Shown piece after piece: positions 2,410 to 41,223 of a stretch of DNA of 45,225 nt. The DNA lies in assembly GCA_012840225.1 (NCBI GenBank), contig DULU01000066.1, forward strand, positions 1 through 45,225. Reading direction: 5' to 3'. Under the pieces are notes generated by a model. It saw nothing but the letters and a program-made list of their open reading frames with translations, searched no databases and was not told where the DNA came from. The stretch comes from Bacillota bacterium. Its GTDB lineage: Bacteria > Bacillota > Limnochordia > DTU080. Made by a program: the position numbers and the translations under genes. The number at the start of each line of letters is the position of its first letter. The first letter of the stretch is position 1.

Positions 2410-3029
2410 CACCGCCCGCCACCACACGTCGCCACATGCCGCCGGCCACGGCGAGGGAGTGTCCAAATAATTCCGCTAGGTGTCCAAAAAAATCCGCTAT
2501 CTGACCGGGTGGGGTGGGGAGGTGTCCAAATCATGCCACAACGGGACGGCGCCGGGCTGGTGGAGTATGAGAATTACCAGTATATGGTAATTTTCAGCGG
2601 TATTTCCTTCCATTTCTTTCCTGAAACCGCTCACCATGACCCCAACCGAGACCTTGAGGGCATAATTTGGACACTCCTGGCGAGTTTGCGTCACTATTTG
2701 GACACCCCCACAGCCCTCTTCCATGTTTGGAGCAAGAAATGGACACTCAAGCGGGCGGGAGGGAGTGCGTGAGATTCTCCACAGAGAGTCGCTGTGTCTC
2801 TTTCGAGAGTTAAGGGTTCTCAAAAATGGCTTGACCGATAGCATTTCCTCCGGAAGTTGGGTCAATGAGAACCATGCCCACTCAGGTGGGTTTTAAGCGA
2901 TGCATCGCCAGGCGCGGTGATTGAGAACTACCACCTTTACGCAGGGTGTTTGTAGTTGGATGGGGCATATCAGCAGCTCAAGGCTTGTTTATTTGCATTC
3001 TCTAATCGTACAATGCATCTCACAGCCTG
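2410..3029. repeat. 590-bp-class tandem repeat, copy 1
   Basis: First of three direct tandem copies; equivalent bases (the GGTGTCCAAATCATGCCAC box) recur at 2521, 3111 and 3702, a period of 590-591 bp. Copy 1 is longer because it carries an extra GTGTCCAAATAATTCCGCTA box directly before the next box (2459 and 2480). The unit has a 226-bp box-bounded core and then a roughly 320-bp tail that includes a palindrome GCGATGCATCGC at 2897-2908. Apparent reading frames inside are not conserved between copies, so it is non-coding. Confidence 0.9.
2480..2705. mobile_element. MITE-like core with doubled inverted GTGTCCAAA boxes, copy 1
   Basis: Bounded by GTGTCCAAA (2480) and TTTGGACAC (2697-2705). A second pair lies inside, at 2522 and 2666-2674; these inner boxes extend to a 16-bp inverted repeat with one mismatch (GTGTCCAAATCATGCC against GTGTCCAAATTATGCC on the other strand). 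The centre holds a hairpin ATTACCA-GTATA-TGGTAAT (2573-2591). Repeated boxes in the same order at both ends are typical of IS21-family ends, so a transposase-less derivative is proposed. No transposase is present, and assignment to a family is an inference. Confidence 0.45.
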
Positions 3030-3621
3030 CTGTCGCCTACCGCCACACGCCGCCGACCACGGTGAGGTGGTGTCCAAAAAACTCCGCTATTAGTCTGGGT
3101 GGGGTGGGGAGGTGTCCAAATCATGCCACAACGGGCCGGCGCCGGGCCGGTGGAGTAGGAGAATTACCAGTATATGGTAATTCTCAGCGGTATTTCCTTC
3201 CATTTCTTTCCTGAAACCGCTCAACATGACCCCAACCGAGACCTTGAGGGAATAATTTGGACACCCCCGGTTGGTTTATGTCCCTATTTGGACACCCCCA
3301 CAGCCCTCTTCCATGTTTGGAGCAAGAAATGGACACTCAAGCGGGCGGGAGGGAGTGCGTGAGATTCTCCACAGAAAGTCGCCGTGTCTCTTTCGAGAGT
3401 TAAGGGTTCCCAATCGATGACTTGACCGATAGCATTCCCACAGAAAGGTGGGTTAATAAGAAACATGCCCACACGGGTGAGGTTTAAGCGATGCATCGCC
3501 AGGTACGGTGATTGAGAACTACCACCTTTACGTAGGGTGTTTGTAGTTGTATGGGGCATATCAGCAGCTCAAGGCGTGTTTGTTTGCATTCTCTAATCGT
3601 ACAATGCATCTCACAGCCTGG
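3030..3621. repeat. 590-bp-class tandem repeat, copy 2
   Basis: Second direct copy, nearly identical to copy 1 over long stretches, for example the segments around 3180-3250 and 3300-3420. It has a single left outer box (3070-3078). Between copies, differences are scattered single-base changes and short indels, so the duplication is not brand new. Confidence 0.9.
3070..3295. mobile_element. MITE-like core, copy 2
   Basis: Same layout and same length (226 bp) as copy 1, with boxes at 3070, 3112, 3256 and 3287. The central ATTACCA/TGGTAAT hairpin is kept. Confidence 0.45.
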
Positions 3622-3999
3622 CACCGCCCGTCACCGCATGCCGCCGGCCACGGTGAGGGGATGTCCAAATAATTCCGCTATCTGACCGGGTGGGGTGAGG
3701 AGGTGTCCAAATCATGCCACAACAGGACGGCACCGGGCCGGTGGAGCAGGAGAATTACCAATATATGGCAATTTTTGGCGGCATCTTCTTCCATTTCTTT
3801 CCTGAAACCGCTCACCATGGCCCCAACTGAAACCTTAAGGGAATATTTTGGACACCCCCGGTTGGTTTATGTCCCTATTTGGACACCCCCACAGCCCTCT
3901 TCCATGTTTGGAGCAAGAAATGGACACTCAAGCGGGCGGGAGGGAGTGCGTGGGATTCTCCACAGAGAGCCGCTGTGTCTCTTTCGAAAGTTAAGGGTT
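3622..3999. repeat. 590-bp-class tandem repeat, copy 3, truncated at the right
   Basis: Third direct copy. It matches the others from the CACCGCCCG start through the conserved TTAAGGGTT near 3991-3999 and then diverges, so about 200 bp of the tail is missing or replaced. The remaining spacer to 4180 shows no recognised gene. Confidence 0.85.
3661..3886. mobile_element. MITE-like core, copy 3
   Basis: Same 226-bp layout with boxes at 3661 (ATGTCCAAA, one change), 3703, 3847 and 3878. The central hairpin is weakened to ATTACCA/TGGCAAT. Confidence 0.42.
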
Positions 4000-37626: not shown

Positions 37627-37773
37627 CGATCAGTTACTTTACTAGTCAGCAGTCAGTCTTAGTTATTAGTTATTAGCTATTGGCTATCAGCCGGGTGAAG
37701 CTAGATTTAGCTTGATCTGGTCCGGCTAGGTTTAGCTTAGCTAGCTTAGCTTAGCTTAACTTGGCTTGGCTGA
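37627..37773. repeat. Low-complexity TTAGCT/GTCAGT repeat stretch in the panB-uvrC spacer
   Basis: The stretch runs through short overlapping repeats: AGTCAGCAGTCAGTC, then TTAGTTATTAGTTATTAGC, then AGCTTAGCTT-type units with CTTGGCTTGGCTG at the end. The rest of the spacer to 37946 has no recognised gene; a TATACTATACC stretch near 37915 could be part of a promoter for uvrC, but no matching -35 is clear. Confidence 0.65.
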
Positions 37774-37946: not shown

Positions 37947-40028
37947 ATGGTGGTGCAGAAAAAAATGACCCGCCGAATATATCAAAAGAATATGGCGGCC
38001 TACAAGCCGGCACCGTCTTTGGTCGCCAAGGCGGCGAGGATGCCGAGGCGACCCGGAGTCTATTTTATGAAGAATGCGGCGGGGGAAACCATCTATATCG
38101 GCAAAGCCAAATCACTTGTCCGGCGGCTCACTTGGTATTTTCGTCCCCATTACAAACTCGACACCCGGATAGCTCACATGTTGTCGGAAACGGTTGATTT
38201 TGACGTCTTCCTTGCCGAATCGGAGACGGAAGCATTGCTCCTGGAAAACAACTTGGTAAAAGCGCTCCGGCCCCGTTTCAACTTCAAATTGAAAGACGAC
38301 AAAAGCTACCCATGTATATGCATAAAAAGCGAACGCTTCCCCCGCCTGACGGCTGCCAGGTACCGGGAATCCGGCGCATCTCAAGGCGAGTTGTATGGAC
38401 CTTATCCCGATGCAGCGGCTGTGCGTAATGCCCTGAAACTGTTGCATGAGCTGTTACCCCTGCGCACCTGTAATCTGACCTTGCCTCCCCGCCGGACTGT
38501 CAGCCCCTGTCTGCGTCATCAGCTGGGCACTTGTGGTGCCCCATGCGCCGGCAGGCAGAGCGAAGAGGAGTATATGGAACTGATAGAGCAGGCCCGCCAC
38601 TACCTCCGCGGCCGCTTCACCGCCCTCTTGCCTTTCCTGCGGGAGCAGATGACCGCGGCGGCCGCAGCTCTGAGGTATGAGCGAGCGGCAGCTTTGCGCA
38701 GGCATATCGAAACCCTCACCAAACTGTCGGAAAAACAGAAAGCCGCAGTGATGGCGGCTGTGGCGCCGGCTCCGGAAGCGGGACATGATCGGCAGCCGGA
38801 TCTGGATGTGCTGGGAGTAGCCATATTTGGCCCGCTCTCCTGCCTCTTGCAGATAGAGGTGCGTCAGGGGGTTATTGCCGGGAGAACCTCTCACTTTTAT
38901 GAGATCGATTCCAGTCCAGCTTTCCATGACGGTCTGACCGCCGATAAATTGATTAGCGAATTTATAGGCAGACATTATGCTCCGGCGCGCTCCATAGGCC
39001 TGCTCCTGCCAAAAGTGATCCAGGACCGCTCGGCCATAGAAGCGGCTGCAGCTCAAGCTGGACTGCATGTAACCATCCCCACCCGCGGGGACAATTGGCG
39101 CCTGGTCAAGATGGCCATGGAAAACGCCCGCTTGGCCTTGATGGAGCATATGGAGCTTCCCGCTGTCCGCCGGGAACTGCATCAAAGAGGATTGGCGGAA
39201 TTGCAAAGGCTACTGGGTTTAGGTTTGGATAGGGTGGCAAGCGGCAGAATTGACGGGGATGGCGGGGATAGCGGAGTTGGCGGGACTGACAGAATGAGCG
39301 AAAAGGGCGGCTCGCCGGAAGCCGGGCCGCATTTGCGGCTGGAAGTATACACATTGATAGCTGCCGGTTCCACCGCTTTGACGGGGGCGATGATCGTGCA
39401 CCAGGATGGCGATATTTATCCCGGTGCCTGTCGCCACCTGCGCCTGAAGACTGCTTTACCTTCCGGAATGCCGCCCGAGCCGGAGGAAGCTATGGCGGCG
39501 TCCATGAAGGAGGCAATTGAGGAATTTATTACCAGACGTTTCGCCTTGGCGGAAAAAGAAAGGAAGAAGCACAATTCGGCCTCTGCCGGCACCGCCGCCG
39601 GCGGCCGGGACAAGTACCGATGGACACCCATACCGGACTGTATATTGATCATAGGCGAAGGCCGCACTCTTCCTGCTCCCAATCCATCACCACCGCGGCA
39701 GGCTTCCGCCACCATCGACCATCTGACGGCGGAGTTGGTTCGGGCTGCGGTGCAAACACTGAACAACCTGGGTTATAAAGTGCCTGTGATAGGCGTGGGG
39801 AGCTTAGACAGCCTATACATGCCTTCCGGATCGTCCGGGTCGACCGGACCTTCTGGGCATGCCGTACCATCCGGGTCGACCGGACCGGTCGCTGCCCCGG
39901 CCGGCGGCACCCTCCTCGTTCTGCCACCGCATTCCTTCCTCTGGCCGCTCCTATTTGGGCTGGCCGGGGAGATGAAAAGGTTCAATACCGCCTATCGCCA
40001 TGGTTTATGGAAGAGGAGACGTCGTTGA
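37947..40028 (+). CDS. uvrC: UvrC-like protein with intact GIY-YIG half but degenerate C-terminal nuclease
   Basis: A 693-residue UvrC homologue. The N-terminal GIY-YIG domain is complete (PGVYF 36-40, TIYIGKAKSLVRRL 48-61, ALLLENNLVK 96-105), and so are the Cys motif (CLRHQLGTCGAPCAG) and the UvrB-binding UVR helix pair (LREQMTAAAAALRYERAAALR). The second, RNase H-like nuclease is badly altered. ECFDISH is EVYTLIA (Asp to Thr469, His to Ala472), LIDGG is LIIGE (Asp to Ile569), and RDEAHRF is AGEMKRF (Asp to Gly674, His to Lys677). The protein then stops at KRRRR, without the helix-hairpin-helix domain. Low-complexity Gly/Ser inserts lie near 440 and 640. Expected to make at most the 3' cut. 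No strong ribosome site is seen; the start is uncertain. Confidence 0.88.
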   Translation: MVVQKKMTRRIYQKNMAAYKPAPSLVAKAARMPRRPGVYFMKNAAGETIYIGKAKSLVRRLTWYFRPHYKLDTRIAHMLSETVDFDVFLAESETEALLLENNLVKALRPRFNFKLKDDKSYPCICIKSERFPRLTAARYRESGASQGELYGPYPDAAAVRNALKLLHELLPLRTCNLTLPPRRTVSPCLRHQLGTCGAPCAGRQSEEEYMELIEQARHYLRGRFTALLPFLREQMTAAAAALRYERAAALRRHIETLTKLSEKQKAAVMAAVAPAPEAGHDRQPDLDVLGVAIFGPLSCLLQIEVRQGVIAGRTSHFYEIDSSPAFHDGLTADKLISEFIGRHYAPARSIGLLLPKVIQDRSAIEAAAAQAGLHVTIPTRGDNWRLVKMAMENARLALMEHMELPAVRRELHQRGLAELQRLLGLGLDRVASGRIDGDGGDSGVGGTDRMSEKGGSPEAGPHLRLEVYTLIAAGSTALTGAMIVHQDGDIYPGACRHLRLKTALPSGMPPEPEEAMAASMKEAIEEFITRRFALAEKERKKHNSASAGTAAGGRDKYRWTPIPDCILIIGEGRTLPAPNPSPPRQASATIDHLTAELVRAAVQTLNNLGYKVPVIGVGSLDSLYMPSGSSGSTGPSGHAVPSGSTGPVAAPAGGTLLVLPPHSFLWPLLFGLAGEMKRFNTAYRHGLWKRRRR

Positions 40029-40167
40029 GCGCATTGGCCATTGGCAGCCCGCCAACTAAGCCTGTGGTGTATAATCAGTTTGAGGCAGGTTGCTTTGACC
40101 GGTAGCCGGCCTCCTGATTCATGTAATCCATCTCATATAAACCATCTATTGAAAAGGGGAAGCTCAT

Positions 40168-41223
40168 ATGTGCAATATAGCAGGATATGTCGGAAAAGAG
40201 GACGCCGCCCCTATTTTGCTGGAGATGATGCGGCGGGAGGAAGGTTTCGCCGGCGGCTATTATACCGGCATAGCCACCATTGACGAGGACGGCAGGTTAC
40301 ATCATGTTAAGGTGGTCGGCGATTTGGCGGTGCTTTTGCGCCAGACCGAAGCCCGCCGGCTGCCCGGCAAAATCGGCATAATTCACAGCCGCAGCAAAAG
40401 CGGAGGCGATGCTGCCTGGGCGCATCCTTTCGTCGACAAGGATCATCAAATGGCTTACATAGCCAACGGTGCCGGCGGCTTCTTTGACTCAAAGCGGGAT
40501 GCCAACGGGGTGGCTAGCCGGCTGGCGGAAGAGGGATATGTGTTCACCTCCCGCAGCGCCACCCCTGTCGGAAAATATCCTACTCTGCAGGACGGCTCGG
40601 CGGTGCATGTCAGTGAAGTGATGTGTGCGCTTATTCATGCGCTGATCAAAGAAGGATTGCCTCCGGCTGAAGCCATGCGCACGGCATATGCCCGCTTTCC
40701 CTCGGAAATTGTGGGATTGATGCTGCATGTGGCCGATCCCGGAGCGCTGTTTGCCGCCCGCATCAACCAGCCGTTGATGATCGGGAGAAATCAAACGGGG
40801 GTTTATGCGGCTACCACGGCTTTGGCTTTTCCGGAAGATGTGGACTGGATCATGCCGGCCCCTCCTCTCTCGGCATTGGTCATCAAGCCTGAGGCGGTGA
40901 CCATATGGCCTATCGAGTTGCCGGAGCGGGTCTGTAACATCATGCCTTGGGCAGAGGGGTTTGCTGCCGTTGAAAAGGAACTGGCCGGAGGGAAACCGGT
41001 AGGATTTGGAGCTTTGAAAAAAGCTACGGCTTCTTTATGGCCGGCAGATCAGGTATCCCAGAAAGATATGATGCTCTATGAAATCCTGCGCTCCCTGAAG
41101 CAAAAGGGCTTGATTTCCTTTGAAACTGTGGCGGTGCCCGGCGTCGAACCGCAGACAGAGGTGGTCAATTTCCGGGTCCGCCTGCGGCAGCCGGAAGAGA
41201 TAGAAAGCGGCCGGTTAGGTTAA
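40168..41223 (+). CDS. Class II glutamine amidotransferase-like protein with C-terminal helical domain
   Basis: A 351-residue stand-alone relative of the GlmS glutaminase domain. It begins MCNIAGYVG, with Cys2 able to act as N-terminal nucleophile once Met is removed. GIIHSRSKSGGDAAWAHPF and YIANGAGGFFD occupy the places of GlmS HTRWATHG and NG motifs. The isomerase SIS domains of GlmS are absent. The last 90 residues (after NIMPWAEGF) look like a small winged-helix or helical domain, KKATASLWP ... MMLYEILRSLKQKGLISFE. AAAAGGGGAAG precedes the ATG. Substrate and acceptor unknown. The stop codon abuts the convergent ABC permease stop with no spacer. Confidence 0.75.
   Translation: MCNIAGYVGKEDAAPILLEMMRREEGFAGGYYTGIATIDEDGRLHHVKVVGDLAVLLRQTEARRLPGKIGIIHSRSKSGGDAAWAHPFVDKDHQMAYIANGAGGFFDSKRDANGVASRLAEEGYVFTSRSATPVGKYPTLQDGSAVHVSEVMCALIHALIKEGLPPAEAMRTAYARFPSEIVGLMLHVADPGALFAARINQPLMIGRNQTGVYAATTALAFPEDVDWIMPAPPLSALVIKPEAVTIWPIELPERVCNIMPWAEGFAAVEKELAGGKPVGFGALKKATASLWPADQVSQKDMMLYEILRSLKQKGLISFETVAVPGVEPQTEVVNFRVRLRQPEEIESGRLG

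Follow-up and report, generated by a model that had tools for sequence, protein, structure and literature searches.

In UvrC, the N-terminal GIY-YIG half is described as making the 3′ cut and the UVR motif as binding UvrB, and the RNase H half as making the 5′ cut with the aid of the helix-hairpin-helix (HhH) domain (PMC7835731). It was also reported that UV tolerance in H. pylori needs residues of both the RNase H and the GIY-YIG domains but not HhH (PMC9426483), so the loss of HhH alone is less telling than the loss of the RNase H catalytic triad. A related nuclease, Cho, reportedly cuts only on the 3′ side (PMC518961), has a C-terminal domain of its own and no UvrB-binding domain (PMC1564403), and in E. 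coli is encoded by a LexA-regulated gene (PMC3820734). Cho-like proteins form a further class, described as comprising GIY-YIG, Cys and UvrB-binding domains without the second nuclease or HhH, and these short forms were inferred to descend from duplicated UvrC (PMC1564403). Full duplications of uvrC have been noted in Clostridium acetobutylicum and Listeria (PMC518961), and a second UvrC-like protein with a GIY-YIG domain in Metabacillus (PMC11164402). In those parts of the open-access literature that the search covered, no UvrC paralogue is described whose RNase H domain is still present yet dead.

The window analysed here is the whole 45,225-nucleotide stretch of contig DULU01000066.1 from a Bacillota bacterium (assembly GCA_012840225.1). 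An open reading frame (ORF) of 693 codons was confirmed in it, which may begin at either M1 or M16. The features of this locus are as follows:

37947..40028, + strand: UvrC-paralogue ORF, 693 aa (ORF, Pfam, TIGR00194)
38052..38276, + strand: GIY-YIG nuclease domain, residues 36-110, active site kept (Pfam, alignment, conserved columns)
38469..38546, + strand: four-Cys motif C175/C188/C196/C200 (identical in 34/34 other rows)
38625..38711, + strand: UVR (UvrB-binding) helix pair, residues 227-255 (Pfam; 10/10 conserved columns kept)
38799..39149, + strand: middle RNase H-like domain PF22920, residues 285-401 (Pfam; 13/14 conserved columns over residues 285-425)
39225..39326, + strand: Gly/Ser-rich insert preceding the RNase H domain, residues 427-460, predicted disordered (pLDDT <50)
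39333..40001, + strand: degenerate 5′-nuclease RNase H domain, residues 463-685 (alignment, profile, fold, conserved columns)
39351..39353, + strand: Thr469 replacing the catalytic Asp of the DIS motif (alignment)
39651..39653, + strand: Ile569 replacing the catalytic Asp of the DGG motif (alignment)
39828..39902, + strand: Ser/Gly/Pro-rich insert with SGSTGP repeats, residues 628-652, predicted disordered (sequence, pLDDT)
39975..39977, + strand: Lys677 replacing the catalytic His of the RDEAH motif (alignment)

The protein was matched by TIGR00194 over residues 27-412 (1.1e-77, 262.1 bits, under the cut-off of 285.45). The GIY-YIG, UVR and middle domains were found above the Pfam cut-offs, the catalytic RNase H domain PF08459 reached an E value of only 0.16, and no HhH domain was found by Pfam. 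The Cho model NF007833 scored 70.8 bits against a cut-off of 367, over profile positions 2-213 of 289.

For the active sites, the protein was aligned with 34 UvrCs, comprising the canonical UvrC of its own genome, the best 29 loci from matches in 53 of 59 other genomes, a phylum member (L040), an Aquimarina sequence (L036) and two UvrCs from viral contigs (L070, L071). The GIY-YIG residues Y39, Y50, R60, Y64, E100 and N112, as well as the four cysteines, are the same as in all 34 other rows. At the RNase H triad, the protein has T469/I569/K677 where D/D/H occurs in 33 of 33 other rows, one row (L030) being truncated in this region. We take these positions to be D367/D429/H488 in T. maritima numbering, and the motifs are consistent with the alignment to 2nrt, a solved UvrC C-terminal half. 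The initial annotation had described the ORF as a UvrC paralogue that lacks HhH and has a dead second nuclease, beside a normal GIY-YIG half, Cys motif and UVR pair, all of which agrees with these results. Its further statement that the catalytic motifs of the C-terminal half are replaced holds for the triad, although some motif residues are still present (E466, G570, E675, R678, R530, R531 and F532). Acidic residues E466, E571 and E675 lie near the triad in sequence but off the triad positions.

The pattern of loss was assessed against 33 UvrC rows, in which columns were called conserved at >=95% and placed in a second class at 70-95%. The protein keeps 25/30 conserved columns in GIY-YIG, 16/19 in the Cys region, all of those in UVR and all but one in the middle domain, compared with 11/35 in the RNase H domain. 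Thus 64/73 are kept before the RNase H domain versus 11/35 within it (Fisher p 7e-9); for the 70-95% columns the counts are 43/106 and 21/42 (p 0.36). In the N-terminal half and middle domain, the conserved columns outlast the 70-95% ones (64/73 vs 43/106, p 8e-11), while in the RNase H domain they have no such advantage (11/35 vs 21/42); conserved columns are not independent events, and these p-values serve as guides only. As a control, the canonical UvrC of the same genome, left out of its own reference, kept 30/30, 19/19, 10/10, 15/15 and, in RNase H, 34/37. Three other UvrCs kept, in GIY-YIG and RNase H, 29/30 and 35/35 (L005), 30/30 and 35/35 (L006), and 30/30 and 34/36 (L004). Because retention is far higher at invariant columns than at the 70-95% ones, the N-terminal half and middle domain appear to bear a sign of purifying selection despite their divergence, with 9/73 conserved N-side columns altered, including R148E and S63W. 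By the same column counts, the positions lost from the RNase H domain are the invariant, functional ones, whereas its ordinary ones behave like those of the rest of the protein, so the pattern looks like silencing of a nuclease and not like a frameshift or uniform decay.

The reading frame itself appears genuine. The C-terminal UvrC profile matched the ORF's own frame only (16.3 bits); the best score among shuffles was 0.7, with a score returned by 337/1000. In 39000-40400, the remaining frames scored <0 or gave no score. Codon statistics of the C-terminal half in the ORF frame gave 0.036 per codon, compared with a maximum of -0.197 in 300 shuffles; the signal is weakest in the last 123 codons, yet above all 300 shuffles even there. 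None of 20000 base shuffles was free of stop codons. Codon adaptation of the gene is 0.63 in the N-terminal and 0.585 in the C-terminal half, versus 0.78 for canonical uvrC.

With regard to the host, the genome (3.55 Mb, 154 contigs, 96.6% complete, 4.28% contamination) contains one full uvrB (C51:43759-45738) and one full uvrA (C51:45812-48562), directly followed by a full uvrC (C51:48649-50733). The product of the latter keeps the D/D/H triad and, with the same Pfam library, is matched by PF08459 (1.6e-51) and HHH_5 (4.5e-11). The suggestion that the window protein might be the sole UvrC of the organism was therefore rejected, and the search for a second, full UvrC in the same genome, which had been proposed as a check, was answered by this gene. 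The canonical UvrC (L002:1474-3558) also has a long Gly/Asp/Glu-rich insert within its middle domain, and a short second UvrA-like stretch, spread over three reading frames and broken-looking, was seen at C66:44045-45321 (-).

The window copy is solitary, located between a divergent panB and a same-strand gene labelled amidotransferase-like from its N-terminal sequence, for which Pfam gave no match. No synteny around ispG, panB and the amidotransferase-like gene was seen in the relatives' regions compared, several of which were short. A scan for LexA-type boxes between panB and the ORF gave none, the window holding no more matches than shuffles, and a scan of the same kind showed no excess in the canonical uvr cluster. 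In the window, Rfam gave no match and the promoter/terminator scan no noteworthy excess over shuffles. A tandem repeat of the 5-bp unit TTAGC, in about 8 copies (37732-37771), occupies part of the intergenic region between panB and the uvrC paralogue.

In none of the 59 other genomes did a second copy of the UvrC N-terminal part turn up; four of them had small extra C-side pieces and six no UvrC match at all. With the C-terminal half alone as query, 2 of 71 other genomes of the class gave matches, both weak, one of them being the canonical UvrC of G001. The whole protein matched 7 of 397 other phylum genomes at E <= 1e-70 (37-41% identity), and all seven matches (L008-L011, L014, L016, L040) have intact triads in the alignment. 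A search of genome contigs with the protein returned only the Aquimarina UvrC, and a single-protein query found no close relatives among viral sequences. TIGR00194 matched 143 of 149 phylum genomes; among the matches listed, from about 210 bits up, at least one other genome, G092, has a clear second UvrC copy as the present one does, in its case a 374-aa short form. No orthologue of the window protein was found in the genomes searched, which makes it a singleton, and a clade-wide loss of the triad, raised earlier as a possibility, is contradicted by the 33 UvrCs alignable there, all of which keep it. In addition, six class genomes have no UvrC over the TIGR00194 cut-off (G006, G011 and G015 of genus g7, and G027, G039 and G048); the three g7 genomes may be without UvrC, with the caveat that assemblies are incomplete, and a full uvrB is present in G006.

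In a tree built on residues 27-425, the protein is sister to the canonical UvrC of its own genome (86/47), within a four-row family clade that includes both UvrC copies (96/99). Its end branch is 3.12 long versus 0.27. Such a long branch makes the placement less certain, but attraction would be expected to pull the protein toward other long rows and not to this position.

The fold was predicted by AlphaFold2 from a 17-row alignment (mean pLDDT 71.6, pTM 0.63). In VIA-align, the UvrC C-terminal half 2nrz_B was matched by residues 409-685 (Z 18.6, rmsd 2.0, 155 residues) and the GIY-YIG domain 1yd6_A by residues 21-116 (Z 15.3), and Foldseek agreed on these UvrC fold matches. The RNase H fold is partly imported, since the 16 other alignment rows have a canonical RNase H domain; a single-sequence model of residues 405-693 had a mean pLDDT of 39.5.

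Compared with the described classes, the protein resembles UvrC in its GIY-YIG active site, four-Cys motif, UVR pair, middle domain and RNase H homology, and is most closely related to its own genome's UvrC, but it differs in the T/I/K triad, the missing HhH and a TIGR00194 score under the cut-off. With E. coli Cho (NF007833) it shares the matched GIY-YIG and Cys region and the expectation of cutting on the 3′ side only; it differs in retaining UVR, where Cho has its own C-terminal domain, as well as the middle domain and an RNase H domain that is dead, and it falls below the model cut-off. The Cho-like (C4-UvrBb) UvrC of Gloeobacter violaceus, as described in PMC1564403, likewise has GIY-YIG, Cys and UvrB-binding domains and no working second nuclease or HhH; it is without the EndoV (RNase H) domain, whereas the window protein has a degenerate one. 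Because it departs from defining features of UvrC, orthodox Cho and the strict Cho-like class alike, the protein is best filed outside all three, as a UvrC paralogue that probably acts like a Cho-like protein. The short form in G092 (L117, 374 aa) also occurs beside a full UvrC and has GIY-YIG, with UVR just below the cut-off, but neither of the RNase H-like domains was matched in it by Pfam (E up to 0.01). With 30% identity over 246 residues, it is probably separate in origin from the window protein.

It appears, with about an even chance in our judgement, that the protein is a fast-diverging, lineage-specific uvrC duplicate that now serves as a one-sided, 3′-only excinuclease of Cho-like type, recruited by UvrB and carrying a dead RNase H domain. 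Briefly, the genome's own uvrC would have been duplicated within the lineage and the copy would have diverged fast. Because GIY-YIG and UVR are kept and the RNase H triad is lost, the product should be able to use its UVR pair for docking on the UvrB-DNA complex and make only the 3′ incision, and the canonical UvrC would supply the 5′ incision; the dead RNase H domain may stay as a folded spacer or as a DNA or protein surface. The residues that are kept would fit UvrB binding with 3′-only cutting, as in a fused Cho. Against this reading stand codon adaptation below that of the canonical gene, the weak codon signal in the last third, the changed conserved N-side columns, a fold match that leans on the supplied alignment, the missing LexA-type box (unlike LexA-regulated E. 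coli cho, PMC3820734) and the singleton status. The lower codon adaptation and the singleton status, together with the very long branch, the low-complexity inserts and the complete UvrC elsewhere in the genome, would also suit the main rival, in which a redundant duplicate is becoming a pseudogene whose 5′ half decayed first while the canonical UvrC does the work and the N-terminal half merely looks intact. This is rather unlikely, as the loss is strongly uneven across domains, 693 codons run without a stop or frameshift, and at columns of moderate conservation the RNase H domain has fared as well as the N-terminal half.

The fully conserved UVR pair and the loss of one nuclease and HhH might instead point to a regulator of excision repair that sits on UvrB-DNA complexes, modulates the canonical UvrC and cuts only secondarily; the intact GIY-YIG catalytic residues, needless for a pure blocker, make such a role quite improbable. 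Still less probable is a GIY-YIG nuclease repurposed outside UvrAB-dependent repair. The gene lies outside the uvrBAC cluster, and other UvrC duplicates with replaced C-termini, as described in PMC1564403, may be of this kind, but the UVR pair and middle domain, on which constraint would be expected to relax away from UvrB, rank with the best-kept parts. An artefact could be imagined in an assembly so fragmented and partly contaminated, and it is the least credible explanation of all. A contaminant contig is unlikely in that IspG is single-copy in the genome and this copy sits on the window contig, the tetranucleotide correlation of contigs C67 and C51 is 0.79-0.90, and the protein groups with its own UvrC in the tree; a frameshift or misassembly was rejected because the UvrC profile match is confined to the ORF's own frame, where the codon signal also lies, and the substitutions are spread across 24 conserved columns. 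The window protein is thus real, ordinary in kind and unusual in form, albeit a singleton in a fragmented draft assembly.

More tentatively, the one-sided excinuclease reading could be extended to a stable pseudonuclease UvrC, in which a folded, catalytically dead second domain persists beside an active GIY-YIG domain, halfway between a dual-incision UvrC and a Cho-like form, with 3′ and 5′ incision split between two paralogues; this possibility is a doubtful one. A copy silenced but not deleted would reveal the order of loss, with the active site and HhH going before the domain itself, and would offer a natural test of whether two UvrC molecules can divide 3′ and 5′ incision between them. A different reduction was observed in viral mini-UvrCs of about 424 aa (L072-L085, at about 2500-3770 in IMG/VR contigs), which, like the window protein, are without HhH, but which have GIY-YIG, Cys and UVR with intact RNase H residues (D/D/H) and no middle domain.
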